DNA of 23,938 nucleotides from a virus. The position numbers and the translations under genes were made by a program. The notes beneath the pieces are model-generated. The model did no database searches. It saw only the letters and a list, made by a program, of their open reading frames with translations, and was not told the origin of the DNA. Positions 5,326 to 17,761 of the stretch are shown piece by piece (positions within the stretch are counted from its first letter, which is position 1; each line of letters begins with the position of its first letter). The DNA lies in IMG/VR virus record IMGVR_UViG_3300020156_000076, positions 1-23,938 of that record; one strand, 5' to 3'.

Positions 5326-8300
5326 TTATCGATTCGGGAATTTAAAGCCACTTTCAACCAGCTTGCTATTGACGTCTGCGTAGATGTCGTTAATCTCCGC
5401 TTGAATGGACCGCAATTGCTGGGATTTATCTTTGGATTTCAACTCACGATTTCCGGTAATTTGGCGTTTCTGCTCGTTCAGAGTGGACAAGCGTTTCGTT
5501 ACCGAACTATTCGCTTGCGAGTTGATCACCCGTTCCATTTGCTCATTGTACCAAGACGGTAACGGGTCGCCGTTGTCCTTATTGTCGTTTTTGGCCTTCG
5601 TATATTTTTCCTTCGCCGTGTAAAAGTCATCGGACAGCGTATTCGTAAATACCGGGTCGGATATGAAATTTTTTAGCAGCGTATTCCGTGCCGTTCCCCC
5701 ACCCACTGGAGAGTTCAACGGAAGCAGGAGTCTCGCCGGGTCGCCTCCGTAAGCTCTCAACAGGTAATCGACCTTCAACGGGGACATTCCGATTTTTTTA
5801 CCAACCCACTTAGATATTTCGCTCGTCCGTTCGTCAAACTGATTTTTTGCAGATACATCTTCAAGTCGCTTCGGTACGATTGGAGCGCCGGTAAAACTCT
5901 TGTTCCCCGTTATAGCCACGAATGGAGCTGCGACAGTGGAATTGATAGTTCCCAATATGCTTTGCTCAGGCCCGCCGCCTTGTGTGGCCCCTTGAAGTGC
6001 TCCAGATACGAGCGGAGGCGTAAAGGCGTTCACTATGGCGTCCAACGTGCCTTTGTAGGCTTGTGGATCACCTTTGACCACATCATTCAGCACATCTGTC
6101 ATAAATGATCCAAACGCTTCATATTCAGGCGGCATAGGCATCTTGATGAACGTAGCATCTGCATTTTTTCCAACAAAAACATTCCGATATCTCTCACGGG
6201 CCGGGAGTTTTTGATAATCCGGGTCGTCATTAAATTGGGCGTATTCATACAGTTTTGGGCCTATAACCAACGTGCCTACGCCGGCCAACGTTTTGACCGG
6301 ATTTTTATAGAATGATTTCAATACCCGATACAGACCTTGAACGGCAGCATTCGAGTAAGGCACTAATGCTTCGGTTTGTTGATAGAACGAACCTTTACGT
6401 GAAAAGTTTGTCGTCGATTCCCTAGCCGCATTGATGGCTTTTCGGACGTTCTCAGGAGTACGTTCCTTGCCCGCCATAGCTCGTCGGAAAGCCGCCATAC
6501 GGTTTGCGTTCTCCGTTATATCGGCTACCTTCTCAAGCCCCTTAAATGGAGCTTTGAGCGTCGATAATGCGCCTTTTGCGATACCGGCAGGAGATAACGG
6601 CGCTTCTTTACGGAGATTGAATACTGCCCGATTAACTGGGCGATCCCCACGCAAAAGAGCCGAATATTCTCCGCCCGCTCGACGGAATTCCTCGGCAAGA
6701 TTTTTCAGTCCAGGTATCCGCAAAACATCTGCAAACGAACTAATCATGGCATGAGGCAAATCGACTGCAATATGTTTAATGGCATTAGGCGACTGGATTG
6801 CGGCCTGTATCGTGTCAGCGGTTAGGTTTTTAACCGCAAACATAGGAGCTAAAAGACCGGTTGCACCGCGTTTTGTTGCATTGGAGAGCATTTGTAGCGC
6901 GCCGAACACGATCCCGGCTTGATCCGATCCCATGCCTAATAGGGCTTTTACGGCTTCCGGATTATGGACCTTGACATATACAGGACGACCGTTCACCATA
7001 GCCCGAACAATGTTTTCATCGCCTGTTTTCGCTGTCTGGAACAGAGATTTAAAATCATTATTCAGTTGTTCCAAGAATTCTTCGGAACCACCTTCGCGCA
7101 AAGCGTCGTCCAAACTGCGGTAACTTGTTGACGGCTTCTTGACGATCTCTACAATACCGCGCATTCCTTCGGGGTCCTTCTGGATCGCCTTGACGATCTC
7201 CTGCATTGTCCGGTTGCGCAGTTCTGCGTTCTTCCAAGCATAAGCCTGTTCAATGGCCGATCGCACCGGGCTGACAATCTTACGTGTCGAACCGGTAGGC
7301 GATACCTCATTAATAGGAGCCCGCTGGCCGGAAAATGCCGAACCACCACTCCCCCATTTAGGGCGTGCCAACTTCTCGCTTAAGTCGAATTGTCGGCGCA
7401 TCGCTGCGTAATTTGGGTTTGCTTCTCGCATTGCATCCCGGGCTTCTTTCGTAATCAACCCTTCACGTACACCGGAATCAAGCAGATTCGTATTGAATTC
7501 ATCCCACATTTGCCCGGCCTTCTGCAATCCGGGGTATCTCGCTTCAAGCTTTGCTACAGCTTCAGCGGCCTTCTCGGGCGTCATTTTGAGCGCCTCATCA
7601 TACACACGTTCACCGCGCTTCATGCGGGTTATGCCATGACGCAACACGAGATAATCATCGAATTTCTTACCGAGGCCGCGGACTTCTTTCATGACATCAT
7701 TCAAGCTCGATCCGATCACATTCCCCTGATTGTCGACGAACTTATCACGAACGATCGTATTTGCGAGATTGTTCGACCTTGCCGCGTCCTGAGCCGTATC
7801 ATACGTCTCTCGATTGATCGTTTTGAGTGGTGAGAGAAAGTCCACGACATTCTGATACGTTGCGCGTCCAGCTTGTTTGGTCTTCTCCACTATGCCGTCA
7901 ACATTGTTCTTTAGCGGATTTTTCACGATCTGCTGTTCCGTTGTCACAATCCTATTGCTTTTCTTCGATCCGAATGGCGTGATGCCGACATTCTGTTCCC
8001 CGAAGAGGCGAGAAAACCAATCTTGCTTTGCCGGTTCATCTGCTGCATTCGTAAGAGGTTTACGGACTTCTGGCAACGACTCCGGATATACCCCGTATGC
8101 ACGGTTTGTGGCGTCCTCTGCGACGCGTTGCTTGATGCTAGGCGTCTTCCCTTCCAACAGATTCGGTAGGTTGAAACCACGCTCTTTCGCGGCTTTGACA
8201 GCTTCATCGTAGACGGTTGTGGTACTCCGGAGTTCCTCGGCCATTTCCTGCAATCCCTCGTATGGCACCTTGCGTACTTCGTTCAACGAGATGTCCGCGC

Positions 8301-9405
8301 CTTGGCGTTTCAACCCCTGCTGTACGTATTTCGCCAGCTCGTTCGGATTCTCCAGCGGCGGCGTTAGGCGTTGCTCTACGATCGGCTTGATTTGTTCCAT
8401 AACCCGATTCAGCGTAACCTCGTTACTAGCCGGGGTAAGACGATTAGGTATGCTGGCCGACTGGAATAATCCTTCAACGACTTCCTCCTGTGGCGTCTTA
8501 CCTTTCTCCGTGACATTCTTGAGGATCGGACCAAGATAACGTTCGATAGCGCTATTAGCAACTTGTTTTGCTGCTGCGCCAAGAGCCGGTCCGCCAGCGC
8601 CTATACCGACTCCCAATGCTCCACCTATAGCACCTTCTGTGGCGGCTTCTCGCAAGTCTCCGCTGCCTGTGCCGAGTGATTGACCGAAACCCAAAGGAAC
8701 GCCAGACAACGCTTCTGTAGTGGCTTCACGTGCTACCTTTCCGCCTACTCCGGTACCTGCTCGCGTTAGGAATCGATCGGCTACATTCCCGGCAGCGCGA
8801 TACAAGTTTCCGGCGTTCGGCCCAAGTGGTCCGCTTCCTCCCATGGGTAGGAAGGAAGCAGCCACGGCGCCCAACGCCTTCTCCGCGCCTTGTGCCGGTT
8901 CTTGTCCGGTGCGCTGTAAAAAATCTTGCCGAGCGCTTGAACCTGGTACATTCTCGACATAGCCACTTTCCGACCGGCGAATAGATGGCGCTGTCGGCGT
9001 AGCAAACTCTGCGATAACTTCGGATGGTCTGCCAACGATGTCAATCGCTTCTTGGGCAACCTTGCTCGGAGGAGCCGCCTTAAATAGTCCAACCGTGTTT
9101 TGTACCATTCGTTCTAAGAAGTTCGGTTTCTCTGGAATGGAGGCTGCATCTTGAACAAGTGGTGATTCCCTAACGTCAAGTGACGGAGCTTTTCCAGTTT
9201 TCATAGCATTGAGTAAAGCACTTGTATCGGTATTGGTTGTAGGTTCTACAGGAGCGACTTCTGGTGTTGATGAAAGTCCAAGTTCTCGCTTCCGTTTTTC
9301 AACGAAACTATTTGAAGTTGACTTTGTTTGGGGCTGTTGCGGCTGTGCTGTACCGGTTGTTATACCCAGATCTCTGCGTCTGCGCTCTGCGAACGATTCC
9401 GCCAT
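5326..9405 (-). CDS. Giant ejection/internal virion protein with polyvalent-protein (LPD38-like) region, 1359 aa
   Basis: Probably packaged in the head and ejected into the cell with DNA. It has two copies of a short basic motif at its N-terminus (SFAERRRRDLG at 4-14, SFVEKRKRELG at 33-43) and a Pro/Thr-rich linker. A Gly/Ala-rich hydrophobic stretch (about 255-285) suits membrane insertion. A long helical middle (about 505-700) follows. A segment at about 850-925 (FAVKNLTADTIQAAIQSP, then FRRAGGEYSALLRGD) resembles the LPD38 domain of phage polyvalent proteins, known from memory of that family. It lies three bases downstream of the 399-aa gene, after a G-rich ribosome site. The position matches P22 genes 20/16. 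Domain names need a profile search. Confidence 0.7.
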   Translation of the reverse strand: MAESFAERRRRDLGITTGTAQPQQPQTKSTSNSFVEKRKRELGLSSTPEVAPVEPTTNTDTSALLNAMKTGKAPSLDVRESPLVQDAASIPEKPNFLERMVQNTVGLFKAAPPSKVAQEAIDIVGRPSEVIAEFATPTAPSIRRSESGYVENVPGSSARQDFLQRTGQEPAQGAEKALGAVAASFLPMGGSGPLGPNAGNLYRAAGNVADRFLTRAGTGVGGKVAREATTEALSGVPLGFGQSLGTGSGDLREAATEGAIGGALGVGIGAGGPALGAAAKQVANSAIERYLGPILKNVTEKGKTPQEEVVEGLFQSASIPNRLTPASNEVTLNRVMEQIKPIVEQRLTPPLENPNELAKYVQQGLKRQGADISLNEVRKVPYEGLQEMAEELRSTTTVYDEAVKAAKERGFNLPNLLEGKTPSIKQRVAEDATNRAYGVYPESLPEVRKPLTNAADEPAKQDWFSRLFGEQNVGITPFGSKKSNRIVTTEQQIVKNPLKNNVDGIVEKTKQAGRATYQNVVDFLSPLKTINRETYDTAQDAARSNNLANTIVRDKFVDNQGNVIGSSLNDVMKEVRGLGKKFDDYLVLRHGITRMKRGERVYDEALKMTPEKAAEAVAKLEARYPGLQKAGQMWDEFNTNLLDSGVREGLITKEARDAMREANPNYAAMRRQFDLSEKLARPKWGSGGSAFSGQRAPINEVSPTGSTRKIVSPVRSAIEQAYAWKNAELRNRTMQEIVKAIQKDPEGMRGIVEIVKKPSTSYRSLDDALREGGSEEFLEQLNNDFKSLFQTAKTGDENIVRAMVNGRPVYVKVHNPEAVKALLGMGSDQAGIVFGALQMLSNATKRGATGLLAPMFAVKNLTADTIQAAIQSPNAIKHIAVDLPHAMISSFADVLRIPGLKNLAEEFRRAGGEYSALLRGDRPVNRAVFNLRKEAPLSPAGIAKGALSTLKAPFKGLEKVADITENANRMAAFRRAMAGKERTPENVRKAINAARESTTNFSRKGSFYQQTEALVPYSNAAVQGLYRVLKSFYKNPVKTLAGVGTLVIGPKLYEYAQFNDDPDYQKLPARERYRNVFVGKNADATFIKMPMPPEYEAFGSFMTDVLNDVVKGDPQAYKGTLDAIVNAFTPPLVSGALQGATQGGGPEQSILGTINSTVAAPFVAITGNKSFTGAPIVPKRLEDVSAKNQFDERTSEISKWVGKKIGMSPLKVDYLLRAYGGDPARLLLPLNSPVGGGTARNTLLKNFISDPVFTNTLSDDFYTAKEKYTKAKNDNKDNGDPLPSWYNEQMERVINSQANSSVTKRLSTLNEQKRQITGNRELKSKDKSQQLRSIQAEINDIYADVNSKLVESGFKFPNR

Positions 9406-9408
9406 ACA

Positions 9409-10608
9409 TTAGCCCCCCCATTTAAGTCCGTGTGTCGCATACAACTTCCTGTATTCATCCTCCGATAAATCATATGAAAGGATTGCTGCCTCCACTTGGT
9501 CGGGATTAAGCAGCATACCATCCTTGTATCTTGCTACGTCATTCGCATATTTTGAAATATCTTGAATAGTTATAGGTTTTGGCCCCGGTATTTCCTTCGG
9601 TTTATTCGCTTGTTCCCGATCAAGCTGCAATCTCGAAGCTGAGATATTAGCCTGTTTCTCCGAAGTGGATGCATTACGTTGAGATACCCCAAGCATGCCC
9701 ATTTGATAAGCTGCATCGTTTATTTCTTTTTGTGCATTTAGTGTTGGTGTACCAGCTGGCACCCCTATGAGTTGTGCCAATTCTGGAAGAACATTGCCGA
9801 CTTTGTCGGACGCGTCGACTAGTTCTTTAAAATACTGCCGCTGTTCGGTTTGTGCTTTTACAGTCGGGCGACCGGATACTTGTTCGAACAACGCCTCACC
9901 GGATTCCTTTGGAAGTACTCCGACACCGAATTGTTCGGATAGATCCGCGGCGTTTTTGATGTTGGTTGCCCGTGCATCCGATTCGCGTTTCAAACCATCA
10001 CTGTACAGACTGTAATAGTCGCCGGCCACACCTTTCAGTGCATTGGCATAGTCGCCCTCGCGTTTATAGTTCGCATCATCCACTTTCATGCTGATGTCGA
10101 TATCATCGAGATACTTCCGGTAATCATCTGCCATGACTTGCGGGATGAATTTCGCATTAAAGTCTGATACGGCTTGTTGCCCGATCTGATTCGCAACGCC
10201 TTCTGAGTAGGAGCTTTTGCCTTGCCCCATCGCCCGAAGTCGGGCCAATGTGTTCCCTTGTTGCGTTGCCGCTGCTTGCTGTGTGGCTTGCAATCCGGTT
10301 TGATATCCCGGATTGCTGTATAATTTCGAGGCATCAAACTGGTACGGTTGCGGCTTCTCGATCGGCTTCGGTTTTTGCATAACGTTATTAGCGTACTGAT
10401 CATATACGGTGCCAGCACGATAGTTGTTATAGGCTTTTTCAAGATTTGATCTTGTGTTGTACGTCGATCCGTCTGCATCTGGTGCAGCGCTGTCGAAGTA
10501 TTTGCCTTTGACGTAAATTGAGCCGTTATCGTATGTGACATCTTCATCTTTTAACCCTTTTTCACCCGTAAGGTACTTCCGGTATCCGTATTTGTCGGCT
10601 GTTGCCAT
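9409..10608 (-). CDS. Putative ejection/internal virion protein, 399 aa
   Basis: A polar, Gln/Ala/Tyr-rich helical protein with no membrane anchor. The N-terminal part (YGYRKYLTGEKGLKDEDV, then a short KGKYFDSAAP segment) precedes a long helical region (about 100-330; GYQTGLQATQQAAATQQGN, IGQQAVSDFNAKFIPQVMADDY). Composition and place, between fibre-type genes and the giant ejection protein, fit a podoviral internal or ejection protein. No homology could be tested. AAGGGGTGAT precedes the ATG. A strong terminator ends only 25 bases before the start codon, so expression seems to need readthrough or antitermination. Confidence 0.6.
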   Translation of the reverse strand: MATADKYGYRKYLTGEKGLKDEDVTYDNGSIYVKGKYFDSAAPDADGSTYNTRSNLEKAYNNYRAGTVYDQYANNVMQKPKPIEKPQPYQFDASKLYSNPGYQTGLQATQQAAATQQGNTLARLRAMGQGKSSYSEGVANQIGQQAVSDFNAKFIPQVMADDYRKYLDDIDISMKVDDANYKREGDYANALKGVAGDYYSLYSDGLKRESDARATNIKNAADLSEQFGVGVLPKESGEALFEQVSGRPTVKAQTEQRQYFKELVDASDKVGNVLPELAQLIGVPAGTPTLNAQKEINDAAYQMGMLGVSQRNASTSEKQANISASRLQLDREQANKPKEIPGPKPITIQDISKYANDVARYKDGMLLNPDQVEAAILSYDLSEDEYRKLYATHGLKWGG

Positions 10609-11018: not shown

Positions 11019-11195
11019 TCAGTTTACCACACTTTCAGCCCAAGCAAAAATCTTTCCCAGTATCGGCACTTTATCGCCAATGAAATCGTAAATGGATTCA
11101 ATTTCTGACAATAAAAAAGAACCAACAAATAGAATGGCTACGACACCTAACAAGTTCAAAAAAATCAGAATCCCATTTTTAAACTTAAATTTCAT
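11019..11195 (-). CDS. Small membrane protein coupled to the stalk protein, 58 aa
   Basis: Begins MKFKFKNGILIFLNLLGVV; one membrane helix (about 9-29) after a basic N-terminus, then an acidic amphipathic tail ending AWAESVVN. Its ATG overlaps the TGA of the upstream stalk-protein gene by one base (TGATG), strong evidence of translational coupling, which compensates for a weak ribosome site (GAAG). Pairing with an exported protein suggests that both act at the envelope. No family is recognised. Confidence 0.65.
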   Translation of the reverse strand: MKFKFKNGILIFLNLLGVVAILFVGSFLLSEIESIYDFIGDKVPILGKIFAWAESVVN

Positions 11196-11776
11196 CACTT
11201 CAACAACTCAGCCTTCTGCTTCTCCAGATCGGCTATTTTGGCTTTTAGTTCGCTTATTTCACTTTGGTATTTAGCTTTTCCTTGTTCCAACTTGGTGATT
11301 TTGTCAGTATATTGTTGTTCTTGATAGTTTGATTTATTTTTTATGGTATCATCAATAAATCCTTGCTGCACTTGTATCAAATATTCCCGATCTTTTATGT
11401 CAGACAGATACTGAGCGATTGACTTATCAATTTGTGAAACTTCAACTGTTTGCATGGCACCACCTCCAGAATTCTTATTTATTGGCACCGCTGAATCTTG
11501 TTTAGCAATAGTAACGTCCTTCAATTCTACTGTTTGTGTATATTCGTTCCAATTGACCTCAACTCCAGTAATTTTGGCTACATCACGTAAGCGTAGGTAT
11601 GTGCTTCCATCTACTATTACCGGAGGATTTTCGAGTTCAACTTTATTACCATTCAAGGTTATCGGCAATCCTTTTCGCACATAAGCTTCAATCTTTTCCA
11701 GACCATCATCAGCGTATACAGAAATTGCTGTCGCCATTAATACACCAGCCAAGAAACTTGCCACTACCTTTTTCAT
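11195..11776 (-). CDS. Secreted stalk-domain (copper amine oxidase N-terminal-like) protein, 193 aa; moron
   Basis: A signal peptide (residues 1-22, MKKVVASFLAGVLMATAISV with a cut near YA-DD) directs export. Residues 37-88 (ITLNGNKVELENPPVIVDGSTYLRLRDVAKITGVEVNWN) form the 'copper amine oxidase N-terminal/stalk' domain that is frequent in Paenibacillus surface proteins. A coiled coil fills 155-193. The ATG at 11776 is preferred because GGGTGTGAT precedes it; the upstream ATG 11791 has no ribosome site. It has its own extended -10 promoter and is not a virion gene, so it looks like a lysogenic-conversion cargo gene placed between fibre and ejection genes. Confidence 0.8.
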   Translation of the reverse strand: MKKVVASFLAGVLMATAISVYADDGLEKIEAYVRKGLPITLNGNKVELENPPVIVDGSTYLRLRDVAKITGVEVNWNEYTQTVELKDVTIAKQDSAVPINKNSGGGAMQTVEVSQIDKSIAQYLSDIKDREYLIQVQQGFIDDTIKNKSNYQEQQYTDKITKLEQGKAKYQSEISELKAKIADLEKQKAELLK

Positions 11777-11805
11777 TATTATCACACCCATCTAGTTTTA
11801 GGAAG

Positions 11806-11814
11806 ATTATACCA
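11806..11814 (-). promoter_or_regulatory. Extended -10 promoter of the stalk-protein unit
   Basis: On the minus strand TG-G-TATAAT lies about 30 bases before the ATG; the -35 is weak. It lets this unit be expressed independently of late transcription. Confidence 0.65.
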
Positions 11815-11841
11815 TCAAAACTAAAGGCGCGAAAATAGTCT

Positions 11842-12651
11842 TTATATCGAGTACCCTTCTATAACTCCGTTATCTACGTGTATCGTCGCTCCAGGAGGAA
11901 TTGAACCGGTGAAACCCGCGAATATAGGGGCTTTGTTATTCAATGCTGTTTGCAAAGTCTGTCCGTCACCATTGCTATACATTTTATCCCAATCCTGAAA
12001 TCGAACTAGACCATCGGCAAAAAGTTTTAAATCAGCACCTGACTGGAGGTATATATTACCGAATCCAAATACGGTATTAATAACAAATTCCGTTGCACTG
12101 TTACCAATTTGGGCCGATACATCTCCATTGTCGATACGGAACCCCGGGTTTCCAGAGATAACAGCAAGTAATTTAACAAAGTTAGTTGCCGAATAGTACG
12201 CTCCAATCAATTCTCCTGTATCAGAAAATTCAATTCTAGGGAATATACCCGCAGCAGCAGTCTGAATAAGCGCCCCTGTAATCGTCCCACCTTCGATGTC
12301 GGTCGCCGTAATCTTTCCTTCAAATTCGCCGTCTGTGGCGTACATCTTGCCGTTTTGCTGCACTCGAAACGGAGCTGCTGTTTTGTCGGCGTTGCCTGCC
12401 CAAAACCGGATAGCCGTGGCCGTGGCAGCGTCAGCTCCGGACATCCCGACAATACCGCTTTTATGCTTTAACTCTGTTTGGCTGACATTGTACCCAGCGA
12501 TTTCACGCATATTTTCGGAGCTTATCCGGCCCTCAAGGAAATTTTGCAATTCCTCTTGAATAATCGCCAACATATTGGCCAAGTAGTGTACGTATTCGTC
12601 AGTAGTTCTATTCCCCTTCGGTTCGATTTGTGGTATATCGACTTTCCCCAT
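11842..12651 (-). CDS. Tail fibre/needle-like protein, 269 aa
   Basis: The N-terminal 60 residues are helical (EYVHYLANMLAIIQEELQNFLEGRI) and could trimerise or dock to the tail. From about residue 75 the sequence is Gly/Thr/Ala-rich beta (RFWAGNADKTAAPFRVQQNG, then GEFEGKITATDIEGGTITG), the style of trimeric phage fibres. The end (GFTGSIPPGATIHVDNGVIEGYSI) is a short beta tip. Place and length correspond to the needle/fibre slot of P22-like phages. It begins five bases after a run of nine G that serves as its ribosome site. The function is inferred from composition and context. Confidence 0.6.
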   Translation of the reverse strand: MGKVDIPQIEPKGNRTTDEYVHYLANMLAIIQEELQNFLEGRISSENMREIAGYNVSQTELKHKSGIVGMSGADAATATAIRFWAGNADKTAAPFRVQQNGKMYATDGEFEGKITATDIEGGTITGALIQTAAAGIFPRIEFSDTGELIGAYYSATNFVKLLAVISGNPGFRIDNGDVSAQIGNSATEFVINTVFGFGNIYLQSGADLKLFADGLVRFQDWDKMYSNGDGQTLQTALNNKAPIFAGFTGSIPPGATIHVDNGVIEGYSI

Positions 12652-12664
12652 CGTATCCCCCCCC

Positions 12665-14179
12665 CTATCTCAACGGTAGCGTATCGCTTTCCCATGCAAT
12701 TTCATGCAAGGTATACGGTCCGCTGCCGACGACTTTGTACCGTAGCTGTTTCGCATTGGCTACCTTGGTTGATGCTACGTAAATCGGCTTACGAATGATG
12801 TCACTTGACGCGGTGATGCTTCCGACTTCCTCCCACGGTTCGTCCTCAGATTTGTTCAGATAGACGGTTAACGAGCTGCCAGTCGGCAAATCTACGGTCA
12901 GCCACATACGAGGCCATCGGATAACTTGAGACATCGACGGTGCTGTGAACCATTTCGAGATGAGTTCGGATGCTATAGACGTTCCGTTATCGCTTGTACC
13001 GCCCATTTTGAGCACTCTGCCGAGCGCATCGCCGATGTAGAAGTCATTCCCCAACCGGACAAAATGAAGCGCCTGAATGTCCTCCCAGACGTTCCAAGCG
13101 CGTACCGTTTTGTCGTATTCGATAATCGTGTCCGGTGCTGTCGAACTGCTGATCGGGATTGCAAAATACAGATTCTTGCCATCGGATCCGACCGCAGATT
13201 GATTCCTAGCCGCGGCGTTCGAATTGTCGGCGTAATACTGGACCACTTCCGAATACGATTTATCCGGCGATACTCCACCGCCATAACTGTAAAATCCTTT
13301 CGAATTGAAAAGGTGCATCGTTCCATCAATGGTCACGGATGATTTGTTGTTTACGATCCCGAGTGTTTGCGACACGGATTGATCGTTGAAATCGGATGGT
13401 ACACCTCCGAGCAGTTTCCGAATAGAGTTGGGGAAACTAATGGTCAGTTTAGCCAATTCCCCGAATAACCCGTTAATGGTCTCGCCAGAAGGAGATTCGA
13501 TTTCCTTTCCGAAGGCTAACGAGTCGTTGAGGGTTCCCGGCGTCCAATCCTCGGCATTATCTAGGGCACTTGCACGGATTTCCTTGTCCCCGTTCATGCT
13601 CACCCATAGCCGATTTTGAAACGTGGTGATATACTTCGCGTTAGCCGGCGCGTTCAACACGTTTTGGACTGTTGACCCATCATAGCGTTGAACCGCATCG
13701 ACTCCATTCGCCATGATGAGGTTAATGCCCGTGTATGCGCCTTGGAAATTTGTGAAATACGCTTCAGCCGTCGTTGATAGTCCGCTTTTAATTGTTGTCC
13801 ATGCGCTTCCGTCCCATTTGCGCCAGGTACCATCATTGAACACAGCATGCAGCTCCGTATCCTTCCAAACGCCAAGCCCGAGCACCTTGGTTCCTACGGT
13901 TGCACCAATCTGTGCATACCCCGGCCTCACGGTCAAAGCCGGGTATTTGCTACTGGTCAGATTCTTCATATCCGCGGCAAATATGTCGCCAATAGAAAAA
14001 GCGTCAAGCTTGTTGACGCCTCGGAATTCTTTGATCGTATATGGTGGTTGACTATCATTCGTCATCCCCCAATTTGTTCGCGTTACTTCCGGGCTTTTCC
14101 GTTTGGCCGGCTCTTTTTCCTCCGATGGGACCCATGGTATACGTTTGGGTGGTATGATCTTTCGTACCATTTCAATCAC
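12665..14179 (-). CDS. Tail nozzle/hub protein (P22 gp10-like), 504 aa
   Basis: After a basic Pro-rich N-terminus, the protein is a long series of beta blades (LGLGVWKDTELHAVFNDGTWRKWDG, KYITTFQNRLWVSMN, GTMHLFNSKGFYSY, NLYFAIPI, GNDFYIGDALGRVL) consistent with a propeller. An AEDWTPG-type motif is shared by many podoviral 'stabilisation/nozzle' proteins. It should form the tail tube below the adaptor. The frame starts with GTG 14179 overlapping the previous stop (GTGATTGA); ATG 14170 with GGGTGAT upstream is an equally good start. It ends at a G9 tract preceding the fibre gene. Confidence 0.68.
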   Translation of the reverse strand: MIEMVRKIIPPKRIPWVPSEEKEPAKRKSPEVTRTNWGMTNDSQPPYTIKEFRGVNKLDAFSIGDIFAADMKNLTSSKYPALTVRPGYAQIGATVGTKVLGLGVWKDTELHAVFNDGTWRKWDGSAWTTIKSGLSTTAEAYFTNFQGAYTGINLIMANGVDAVQRYDGSTVQNVLNAPANAKYITTFQNRLWVSMNGDKEIRASALDNAEDWTPGTLNDSLAFGKEIESPSGETINGLFGELAKLTISFPNSIRKLLGGVPSDFNDQSVSQTLGIVNNKSSVTIDGTMHLFNSKGFYSYGGGVSPDKSYSEVVQYYADNSNAAARNQSAVGSDGKNLYFAIPISSSTAPDTIIEYDKTVRAWNVWEDIQALHFVRLGNDFYIGDALGRVLKMGGTSDNGTSIASELISKWFTAPSMSQVIRWPRMWLTVDLPTGSSLTVYLNKSEDEPWEEVGSITASSDIIRKPIYVASTKVANAKQLRYKVVGSGPYTLHEIAWESDTLPLR

Positions 14180-14735
14180 CCAACTTCGAATAGTTTTGGG
14201 CGGCTGCGGTCAATGCTGCCCTGTATTCATTACCGTAGTTGTTAGACTTGCCGGTGTCGTTGTTGGCATTGGCGATCTTTTCGCAAAGCCCTAGGACATA
14301 GATCCAGTGGTACTCTGCCGGCGCATCCGGATTCGCGGTTAGAATGCTGGAGACATAAGTAGACGTTGCTATACGGTAGTACCTGACGATTGCCCGAAGA
14401 CCCGAGGCATACGGAGCCGGTGTGAATGTTATATTGTGGTCGGATTCGTTGAAGGTGAAATAATTTTGCGCCGGCTTCACATCTTCGTAATTCAGAGATA
14501 GATAATTAATCAGACCAACGCGCGCCTTATCAATACTGTTATCTCTCACATCGTCGGGCAAAACGTAGCTTGCTTGAGATGCCACAGTCGTAAATACCGA
14601 CGATTGCGGAATCTTCACGATCTCGAAAAATTCTTGGTTCACCTTGTTGAGCCATGGTATTTTATCGGCTGCTTGATAAGCGTTGGGTACTAACAGATCC
14701 GCCTCATCTATGATTTGTTGCAGCGTAAGAGCCAT
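14172..14735 (-). CDS. Second head-tail adaptor/connector-like protein, 187 aa
   Basis: A mostly helical protein with the same layout as the 193-aa adaptor upstream: TLQQII at the start, LNKVNQEFFEIVKIP around 28-42, a beta segment with Y-x-LP-D, a short strand with IVRYYRI, and a C-terminal helix pair ending in NEYRAAL. This is the pattern of podoviral gp4-type adaptors, which extend the portal. AGGAG precedes the ATG. It lies directly before the nozzle gene with an 8-base overlap, so it is probably the lower adaptor. Confidence 0.6.
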   Translation of the reverse strand: MALTLQQIIDEADLLVPNAYQAADKIPWLNKVNQEFFEIVKIPQSSVFTTVASQASYVLPDDVRDNSIDKARVGLINYLSLNYEDVKPAQNYFTFNESDHNITFTPAPYASGLRAIVRYYRIATSTYVSSILTANPDAPAEYHWIYVLGLCEKIANANNDTGKSNNYGNEYRAALTAAAQNYSKLGD

Positions 14736-14753: not shown

Positions 14754-17129
14754 TTATTGGGCAACTGCACTGAGTTTGGCGCCCAACAAATTGATACTTC
14801 CGGCGTTGCTGTGTATGGTTTTCAAAGTGATTTCGTCTCCGACATCGCAGTACATGCATATTGAGCAATTTAGGTCATTCCACGTATCCAGTACAATTTT
14901 ATCGGTTACACGCACACCATCAACATAGAGATTTAGCATCGCGTTCCCACCCGACACATTGTCGTATCTGGCCGTTGCTGTGACGACATACATCCCGGCT
15001 TTTTGAATCACAATGCGGTTCGGATTTCCGGAGTCAAACATGTTGTAATTATCGAAGACCTCCGAAAAACTGAGTTGTGTCTCTACTCCCGTTGCTACTG
15101 ATAGAGTCGAGGAATAGGCCACTTCAACCGCTGGAATGGTGGGCAAAGGTACGTCCATCCCGTTCATCAGACCGAACAGTGACGGTAGATACGTTACGGC
15201 ATGACCCAAGCCTGTAGGGTGGTGGATTCCATCGCCGCTTGACGTTGTATCTGTATATGGCAGTTCCCCGATTAAATCCGCCTGCGAGTACATGGGTCTG
15301 TCGAACAGAGAATCCTCAAACGATATAGACAGGTTTTCTAGAATCGGACATGCACCGGATGAACCGAGATAAACTTGCCCATCATGCATAATGTGATAAG
15401 TTTTGAATACCTGTATAACTGTTCCATTTATAGAGAGTGTGTGTTTGTTTCCAACGGATTCGATGGTCAAGTTGTATTTGGTTCCGGTGTTGATTATCCC
15501 CGCCGAAACATCAGAAAGAGTGACATTACCCGCCGCTGTCATACTCCACAGTTTTATGCTCGAATCGCTTGCTCCGTTTGTGGTGGATGGCGAAATCGTC
15601 CATAACAGATATCCAAGATCCGTGTCTTTACGATATCCCACCCAAAGAACGCCATCGGCGCCGTTAACTTGCGGTGTGAAATCAAGTTCAATGGTGCCCT
15701 CGTAATAATTCCGCGCACGTGTGATAAACTTGTTCGTACTGTTCGGAGTGAGGATATTCGAAGCCAGAGAGAAATTAGCCTTATCGCCTGTCCAGTCGGA
15801 AGAACTATAGCCCTCCCAGTTGAATTCGGCATCCGACTTCCTCAAAACATCGTCCGTTCCGTCTCTGAGGAGCAGATAAAGCCGGTTTGCGTCAGCCAGG
15901 GCGAAATTGTTGCTTTTTGCGTATTGTCTTGTGGTTCTGGCCACGGCCTGCGTAACCTCTTGACTTTGGTCAAATCCGGGCAATTCCTGCTGCACCGCTG
16001 CGATATCGGTTGTCGGCAGGATGGTGGACACCAAGCAAACCGAAGGTACTTTTGTCCATGTGTTCACGAATGTTTTCATTGTATCTAAGTTAGTGGCAAA
16101 GTAATTATCCAGCCCATAAGCGAATGCTTTAGACCCATTGGAGTCATTCATCCCAAAGGCGACGATAACCAAATCAGGTGCATAATCTTGCACATATGTC
16201 CGCCATACCTTATTCGGATCAGTCACCCATGGCCGTGGTCGATCCGAATAGTTCGCGTAGGTTGGATTAACTGCATCAGCCAACGTTCTGCCGGATAGTG
16301 AGTAATTTTGGTATTCGATGGTTACGTTTGGATACTTATCTCTTAAAGCACGAATAAACCGCTCGGCATAGGCGTCCCGAGTGTCGGTTTGGTCGTCTCC
16401 TTCGGTGATGGAGTCACCCCAGAATGCTATCTTAATGCTTCCCTTCGACAGTGCTGTTCTCGCCACGGTCAAGGCATCCGCCGAGGTATCCGCGCCACTT
16501 TCAGTTACTGCATTATTGTACAATGCTGACGTTCGTCGCATCGCTTTGTCTTGGATTTCAGTCTGCAACGCAATAATGTTATCCGCGTTACCTTTCACGG
16601 TTTCCGTTGTTCGGCCTGCGCCGGCCAAATCTGCAAGATCATTCTGAAGCTCAGTTATCTCCGGGTACATATACCCCGACTTAAGACGAAATCCGCCAAC
16701 ATCACCGCGCCGGTCTGTGATGGCGCTGACGTTTTTATTTACGTCCGTCGTGACCTCGGCGATCGGCAAATACGATCCACTCGGATGTGACGTTTCAAAA
16801 CTGTACTCGCCGCCGGTTTTATAGTCTAAATAATATGTTGCACTCGCAACGGTCGTGGTAAAGCTTATCGCTTCATGACGGGTGACATCATTGTCCAGCG
16901 CAGCTACAAGTTCCGTTGCGTTGATTCTATTGTTATACGTCACATCTTTGGTAACCACTCCGCCAGATACAACGTAATCTTCAAGAAAATAGCCGACATC
17001 GACGAGTTTTTTAAGCTTATTATAGTCGTCGTAGACCGTTTGTGTTTGTTGTGCAATGTTTTCGGATGCACTCACCATGTTCACCCCGATCAGAGTAAAA
17101 ATACATAAAATGACGAACAGTTTTTTCAT
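14754..17129 (-). CDS. Signal-peptide-bearing SGNH/GDSL hydrolase with inserted lectin-like domain and C1q-like tail, 791 aa
   Basis: N-terminus MKKLFVILCIFTLIGVNMVS is a signal peptide (cut near SA-SE). A linker with a heptad stretch (155-195) precedes an SGNH hydrolase domain. It shows GDS at 238-240 (catalytic Ser240), Gly280 in SLSGRT, GMND (326-329, Asn328) and, after a long insert, DGIHH with Asp633 and His636. Residues about 435-605 between these blocks form a beta-rich LamG/concanavalin-like insert. Residues 665-791 form a C1q/TNF-like jelly roll. Deacetylation of a surface glycan is the likely reaction. GAAGGGGCG precedes the ATG, which overlaps the previous stop by four bases. A signal peptide is odd for a virion protein; a cell-surface conversion factor is the alternative. 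Confidence 0.75.
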   Translation of the reverse strand: MKKLFVILCIFTLIGVNMVSASENIAQQTQTVYDDYNKLKKLVDVGYFLEDYVVSGGVVTKDVTYNNRINATELVAALDNDVTRHEAISFTTTVASATYYLDYKTGGEYSFETSHPSGSYLPIAEVTTDVNKNVSAITDRRGDVGGFRLKSGYMYPEITELQNDLADLAGAGRTTETVKGNADNIIALQTEIQDKAMRRTSALYNNAVTESGADTSADALTVARTALSKGSIKIAFWGDSITEGDDQTDTRDAYAERFIRALRDKYPNVTIEYQNYSLSGRTLADAVNPTYANYSDRPRPWVTDPNKVWRTYVQDYAPDLVIVAFGMNDSNGSKAFAYGLDNYFATNLDTMKTFVNTWTKVPSVCLVSTILPTTDIAAVQQELPGFDQSQEVTQAVARTTRQYAKSNNFALADANRLYLLLRDGTDDVLRKSDAEFNWEGYSSSDWTGDKANFSLASNILTPNSTNKFITRARNYYEGTIELDFTPQVNGADGVLWVGYRKDTDLGYLLWTISPSTTNGASDSSIKLWSMTAAGNVTLSDVSAGIINTGTKYNLTIESVGNKHTLSINGTVIQVFKTYHIMHDGQVYLGSSGACPILENLSISFEDSLFDRPMYSQADLIGELPYTDTTSSGDGIHHPTGLGHAVTYLPSLFGLMNGMDVPLPTIPAVEVAYSSTLSVATGVETQLSFSEVFDNYNMFDSGNPNRIVIQKAGMYVVTATARYDNVSGGNAMLNLYVDGVRVTDKIVLDTWNDLNCSICMYCDVGDEITLKTIHSNAGSINLLGAKLSAVAQ

Positions 17130-17707
17130 TTCGCGCCCCTTCCCACATCGTACACATCTAGTATTCGATGCGGTCTTGCTTGCTTGGAACGGTAGTATTG
17201 TCGTTCCAGTTCACTGATTTGCGAAGTGAAATATCTGACTTGCCCATCTTTCCCTTCAATTTCTGCCAAGTCCCGGCACACGTAATTGACCAACAGCATA
17301 TGCCATGCTTTATCCATTTCTGGGGTATCTGTTGGCCCGCTCAAAGTCGCAGGTTCCTTGTAATGGATAACCTTTAGGCCCTCCGTTACGTCTTCATCAG
17401 GCGTAGGGTAGATGATTACTGCCGATCCATCCATCACGTAATAATAGCGGTCCTGGGCGGTATACTTGATATTTTGGTTTGGGTAGTCCGCGCCGTCTGC
17501 TACAACCGAAACGATTCCATCGGCCGAAAAGTCAATCGGATAAGCCGGCTCCCCGGCAAGAAGGTCAAACGTCGCAACAGTAGGCAGCTTGAACATCGTG
17601 CGGAACAATCGCTGCTGTATATCGTTAATCATCGTAATGACGTAAGATTCACCGTAACTATGTGGATATTTCATAGAGATCATGTTTATAATCTCCCCAA
17701 GGGTCAC
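17126..17707 (-). CDS. Head-tail adaptor/connector-like protein, 193 aa
   Basis: Starts MTLGEIINMISMKYPHSYG, followed by a helix (VITMINDIQQRLFRTMFKLP) and a beta core (AYPIDFSADGIVSVV), then a strand (LKVIHYKEPATL) and C-terminal helices (AWHMLLVNYVCRDLAEIEG). This is the usual arrangement of podoviral/siphoviral adaptors that bind below the portal. The start is GTG 17707, seven bases after AAGGAGGTG. A strong terminator lies immediately upstream. It overlaps the SGNH gene by ATGA. Confidence 0.68.
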   Translation of the reverse strand: MTLGEIINMISMKYPHSYGESYVITMINDIQQRLFRTMFKLPTVATFDLLAGEPAYPIDFSADGIVSVVADGADYPNQNIKYTAQDRYYYVMDGSAVIIYPTPDEDVTEGLKVIHYKEPATLSGPTDTPEMDKAWHMLLVNYVCRDLAEIEGKDGQVRYFTSQISELERQYYRSKQARPHRILDVYDVGRGAK

Positions 17708-17726: not shown

Positions 17727-17761
17727 CAAAAAAAGTAGGCGAAGCCTAAGCCCCGCCTACT
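17727..17761 (-). terminator. Strong intrinsic terminator between head and tail genes
   Basis: AGTAGGCG (17734-17741) and CGCCTACT (17754-17761) pair over 8 bp; on the minus strand seven T follow at once. Only about 20 bases separate it from the adaptor start codon, so no promoter fits after it. It probably lowers tail-gene expression relative to capsid, or is overcome by antitermination. Confidence 0.85.

Follow-up and report, generated by a model that had tools for sequence, protein, structure and literature searches.

Among the late genes of a 23,938-bp viral record, the whole of which we analysed and refer to as the window, is one that most likely encodes a virion spike that deacetylates a surface polymer of its host; on the basis of homology and predicted fold, we put the probability of this reading at about 85%. 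The gene (positions 14754-17129, minus strand) is a single unbroken open reading frame of 791 amino acids. We propose that its product is the tailspike, or receptor-binding protein, of a temperate phage, probably with a short tail, whose host is of Paenibacillaceae type. Residues from about 18 to 193 would attach the spike to the virion, where we infer it to be present. The SGNH domain and the jelly-roll carbohydrate-binding domain inserted into it would bind and O-deacetylate an acetylated host surface polymer during adsorption, an activity and a substrate that we likewise infer; the tip that contacts the receptor is probably the C-terminal beta domain. The signal-peptide-like N-terminus of this protein is, as judged from sequence comparison, a real anomaly, apparently a lineage-specific extension on an otherwise ordinary spike. 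The features are listed in the table.

Features of the spike gene and its surroundings in the window, and genes that directly follow the spike in related loci (locus named with the position)
Feature	Position	Strand	Remarks
Long-form ORF	14754..17129	-	791 aa; signal-peptide-like start, then spike anchor, SGNH esterase interrupted by a jelly roll, and a beta domain at the C-terminus
Upstream neighbour, SU10_adaptor-type head-tail connector protein	17126..17707	-	Stop overlaps Met1 (ATGA)
Downstream neighbour, second SU10_adaptor-type protein	14172..14735	-	
Shine-Dalgarno region of Met1 (GGAAGGGGC)	17135..17143	-	-13.0 kcal/mol; position conserved in L004, L011, L149
Signal-peptide-like extension, residues 1-17 (MKKLFVILCIFTLIGVN)	17079..17129	-	Absent from all relatives examined
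Shine-Dalgarno-like sequence before Met18 (TCGGGGTG)	17082..17089	-	-11.6 kcal/mol
Putative short form from Met18, 774 aa	14754..17078	-	Start position of homologous spikes
Putative virion-anchor module, residues 18-193	16551..17078	-	Common to other spikes of the slot
SGNH core part 1, residues 217-429	15843..16481	-	Holds Ser240, Gly280, Asn328
CBM66-like / concanavalin-like jelly-roll insert, residues 430-607	15309..15842	-	From model; 3keto-disac_hyd match in homologue L132
SGNH block V, residues 608-660	15150..15308	-	Invariant His637 (GIHHP; homologues GINHP or GVNHP)
C-terminal beta domain, residues 665-791	14754..15137	-	C1q-like unproven; probable receptor-binding tip
Acyl_transf_3 gene after spike	L004 5702-6862		
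Acyl_transf_3 gene after spike	L105 6827-7942		
Acyl_transf_3 gene after spike	L118 6133-7185		
Wzy_C gene after spike	L031 13788-15092		
Wzy_C gene after spike	L151 8553-9599	-	
Wzy_C gene after spike	L108 6573-7871	-	Strand opposite to spike
DUF6270 gene after spike	L109 6350-7045		
Hexapeptide transferase gene after spike	L117 6514-7203		
Polytopic protein after spike	L130 4172-5437	-	Unproven; Wzy_C match insignificant (E 0.54)

The minus strand of the window carries the late genes, beginning with those for TerS, a Terminase_3-type TerL, a P22-like portal, a scaffold and the major capsid protein, continuing with an SU10-type adaptor, the spike gene, a second SU10-type adaptor and a 504-aa virion protein, and ending with further late genes and a lysis module. 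Pfam matches place the spike gene exactly between two SU10_adaptor genes, and thus inside the head-tail connector operon, as an earlier note on this DNA had described. A serine recombinase is encoded on the plus strand and the phage is therefore probably temperate, and its gene content suggests that it is probably short-tailed. The named relatives, for example Paenibacillus prosopidis, together with genus and family searches around P. prosopidis, point to a Paenibacillaceae-type, Paenibacillus-like host. A megablast search of the window against phage records returned no match, nor did a search of P0001 against five genomes, and no close relatives of the whole 791-aa protein were found in viral contigs.

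To collect related loci, we used profiles of the capsid, the anchor, the 504-aa protein and the SGNH domain against viral contigs and bacterial genomes, and defined the spike slot as the position that follows the first adaptor, precedes the second adaptor or the 504-aa protein, or does both; since homology guided the choice of loci, the set includes some close kin. The slot held a spike-like protein in all 25 relatives examined. Several of these proteins have beta-helix or pectate-lyase-like domains in Pfam and the others were judged spike-like from sequence; the slot protein of L149 matches tail-spike and pre-neck-appendage PHROGs. Residues 18-193 of the window protein are common to ten other slot spikes (L011, L020, L022, L117, L118, L130, L131, L149, L150 and L151), at 41-55% identity, and a search of the anchor alignment against genome contigs found no relatives there. 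L149, L011, L022, L117, L118 and other slot spikes thus resemble the window spike in anchor and position, and L149 and L011 also in the ATGA overlap with the adaptor gene, but they carry other C-terminal domains, beta-helical where matched, and begin at or close to the residue that corresponds to Met18.

C-terminal to the anchor, the protein matches Lipase_GDSL_2 in Pfam (E 3e-12, residues 236-426), and the motifs, together with this match, bear out the assignment of Ser240, Gly280 and Asn328 to SGNH blocks. The catalytic serine lies in the GDS of block I (G238-D239-S240), which is invariant in homologues, Asn328 in the GMND of block III (326-329) is kept in all eight aligned homologues and Gly280 of block II in seven of the eight. 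A block V can also be assigned, although the pair Asp633/His636 proposed for it needs correction: it is His637 that is invariant, whereas His636 aligns with Asn in all eight SGNH homologues. At Asp633, seven of the eight have Asn and the remaining one a gap; L123, which was aligned separately, has Glu at this position. The canonical Asp-x-x-His of block V would require an Asp three residues ahead of His637, which is absent, as it is from gp66 of Pectobacterium phages Possum and Horatius, a member of an active family. The catalytic centre is therefore likely to be a Ser-His dyad or to use another acid.

We built an AlphaFold2 model on 14 sequences from the window and the related loci (mean pLDDT 67.5). 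It comprises an N-terminal beta module, a helix at 182-211, an SGNH domain in two pieces, a jelly roll at 430-607 between these pieces and a C-terminal beta domain predicted with low confidence. The SGNH core (200-661 minus the insert) matched the acetyl-mannan esterase CEX (6hfz; Z 18.8, 209 residues aligned, rmsd 2.7) and the insert matched CBM66 (4azz; Z 17.8). Insert and core are therefore predicted to be separate folds, in agreement with the earlier note, which had placed a beta insert between blocks III and V and proposed structure prediction as a check. Its C1q-like tail had only a weak PHROG match (E 2e-4) and a pLDDT of about 35-60 in the model. The two best viral matches in Foldseek were an SGNH protein of E. 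coli phage anhysbys and the Possum tail spike, and a PDB sequence search with the single protein found no match.

The same split SGNH cassette occurs in other phages. An SGNH domain with insert and GxNHP, and with no signal, fills the same slot in L126/L129/L133, L127, L138 and L139, which are Paenibacillaceae prophages and isolate phages, and the cassette is also carried by proteins from the tail regions of other phages, siphophages among them (L123/L128, L132, L142, L143, Kayfunavirus, Possum/Horatius and anhysbys). The spikes of L126/L133, L127, L138 and L139 share with the window spike the slot before the second adaptor and the cassette, but differ from it in their N-terminal anchors and in lacking a signal peptide. 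The domain order that had looked new is therefore a known, recurring spike architecture, found four times in this very slot. Possum/Horatius gp66, a Cbunavirus tail fibre, has a homologous SGNH domain (GDSI...GMND...GGNGINHP) with a beta insert between blocks III and V and, like the proposed window spike, is an enzymatic receptor-binding protein, but it has a different N-terminal attachment domain, no signal peptide and a Gram-negative host. Possum gp66 removes O-acetyl groups from the host O-polysaccharide (PMC9569702). Temperate Klebsiella phages often have SGNH receptor-binding proteins, and two such proteins from Klebsiella prophages are active esterases (PMC13123978). The SGNH tailspike deacetylase gp63.1 of E. 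coli phage G7C belongs to the same functional class according to the literature. SGNH deacetylase spikes are already recognised as a class that is common among temperate phages, to which this enzyme adds a new member.

Sequence comparison and predicted fold establish the slot, the anchor homology, the SGNH core, the insert and the conserved Ser240, Asn328 and His637. As the anchor is common to slot spikes and the split SGNH cassette to phage tail proteins, the protein is most likely a virion tailspike deacetylase. The earlier note had weighed a secreted or surface-bound glycan deacetylase against a role in the virion; fold and homology with Possum gp66 support the deacetylase well, and the homology of both anchor and cassette favours the virion. 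Speaking against a virion spike, such a protein needs no Sec signal, and if all molecules started at Met1 and were exported ahead of assembly, virions would obtain few spikes.

The N-terminus follows the Sec-signal pattern MKK-LFVILCIFTLIGV-NMVSA followed by S, with a charged n-region, a 13-residue hydrophobic core and small residues at -3 and -1, and cleavage is predicted between VSA and SEN, after residue 21. Its best 11-residue hydropathy is 3.32, compared with at most 1.87 in 22 other slot spikes. By composition it is thus signal-peptide-like, as had been read from the sequence, with export itself putative. A signal-like N-terminus is absent from all 25 other slot spikes (those of L149-L151 were read by eye), which accords with the expectation that receptor-binding proteins normally lack one. 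An open, signal-peptide-like stretch of 48 nt arose in 5e-4 of shuffles and in fewer than 1e-4 of random sequences at the GC content of the window. We judged the rarity of the extension on IMG/VR, GTDB samples and phage records. Among the loci compared, only chance-level short matches to its 51 nt were found. A literature search for tail spikes bearing signal peptides found none, and a broader one found gp38 reported without a signal peptide and a signal peptide reported for an endolysin instead.

In the relatives, the start codon of the spike gene overlaps or closely follows the adaptor stop. L004, L011 and L149 have, like the window, an ATGA overlap at the start and a Shine-Dalgarno region in the same place before it. 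From Met18, the window protein reads MVSASENIAQQ, and relatives begin MSQATEQIASQ, MKQAAEQIAGQ or MRQASEQIANQ. The strength of the Shine-Dalgarno-like sequence before Met18 is equalled by only 2.4% of the internal in-frame start codons of late genes. Predicted accessibility did not clearly separate Met1 from Met18. Because Met1 keeps the conserved start signals and Met18 has a Shine-Dalgarno-like site of its own, both starts are plausible.

The two starts could serve two products, a Sec-exported esterase from Met1 that strips receptors from the infected or lysing cell and the virion spike from Met18, which after signal cleavage would differ by only four residues. Removal of acetyl groups from receptors would limit superinfection and re-adsorption of progeny; phage receptor modification prevents both in BTP1 (PMC4413052). 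Such a dual product would add to the virion-spike reading rather than replace it, and our confidence in the one overlaps with that in the other. It is consistent with the conserved start signals of Met1, with the strong site at Met18, where homologues start, and with a signal-peptide-like character that is unlikely by chance, whereas the extension is found in one sequence only and the Met18 site is predicted to be modestly accessible (0.27-0.31), although several starts elsewhere in the operon do not score higher. The search for a minus-strand promoter ahead of the gene gave nothing above chance, which argues against expression in the lysogen and makes the suggested remodelling of the lysogen's receptors a weak proposal. 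On balance we regard two products as plausible but somewhat short of an even chance. A tentative possibility that we also take seriously is that only the Met18 product, or a poorly exported Met1 product, matters, in which case the extension would have no effect or hardly be translated, and what looks like a signal peptide would be an illusion of the start site. Homologues that share the anchor indeed have their start at the position of Met18 or close to it, and Met18 has its strong Shine-Dalgarno-like sequence, but this account leaves Met1 with conserved, stronger start signals and an adaptor overlap, and 17 codons that resemble a signal peptide far beyond chance.

A secreted or surface esterase with no role in the virion, the main option of the earlier note, is improbable: the signal-peptide-like N-terminus and a second exported-looking protein encoded in the late operon (11195-11791) would fit it, but the protein keeps a complete virion-anchor module and is the sole spike-like gene product of a slot that holds a spike in all relatives. 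Least probable is a sequencing or assembly artefact at the N-terminus. The extension comes from a single viral record, but the insertion is of exactly 17 codons, in frame, with the flanking conserved sequence intact and a coherent signal-peptide pattern.

The dual-product reading gains interest from genes found in related loci. The gene directly after it is, or may be, a surface-polymer modifier in nine of the 25 relatives, a tally of these loci rather than a rate; in the window only 18 bp follow the spike, with no modifier gene. O-acetylation by Sf6 confers superinfection immunity (PMC9558356). The viral record L134 encodes an SGNH tailspike (7275-9641, plus strand) and a separate, exported-looking SGNH esterase of the same family with a lipoprotein-like signal (11110-11979, minus strand), which lies beside an integrase-like ORF and is 27% identical to the SGNH domain of the L134 spike (E 1e-20); no relatives of this esterase were found elsewhere. 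The adjoining modifier genes of the nine relatives and the L134 esterase make Sec routing of the window enzyme attractive, though not proven. With its spike and, in these nine relatives, an adjoining surface-polymer gene, the slot resembles a compact cassette for spike and receptor modification, carried by phages of Gram-positive bacteria. The 17-residue extension offers a simple and decisive test of whether a phage spike can double as an exported receptor-destroying enzyme. If it does, one gene with two start codons would supply both the tailspike of the virion and the same deacetylase in Sec-exported form, and the spike enzyme would itself clear receptors from the producing cell, a task for which related phages may use separate acyltransferase, polymerase or lipoprotein-esterase genes next to the spike.

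Other features of the late region were also seen. A strong terminator-like hairpin (12 pairs and a T-run; 17734-17761, minus strand) separates the capsid gene from that of the first adaptor. A 1359-aa protein with an LPD38 domain (E 3e-35; 5326-9405, minus strand) is probably an ejected internal virion protein. The second exported-looking protein, on the minus strand, has a signal peptide and a Cu_amine_oxidN1 domain; it is conserved in the late operon of L011, L022, L128, L129, L131, L149, L150 and L151, and a protein of this type is also found near a siphophage tail module.
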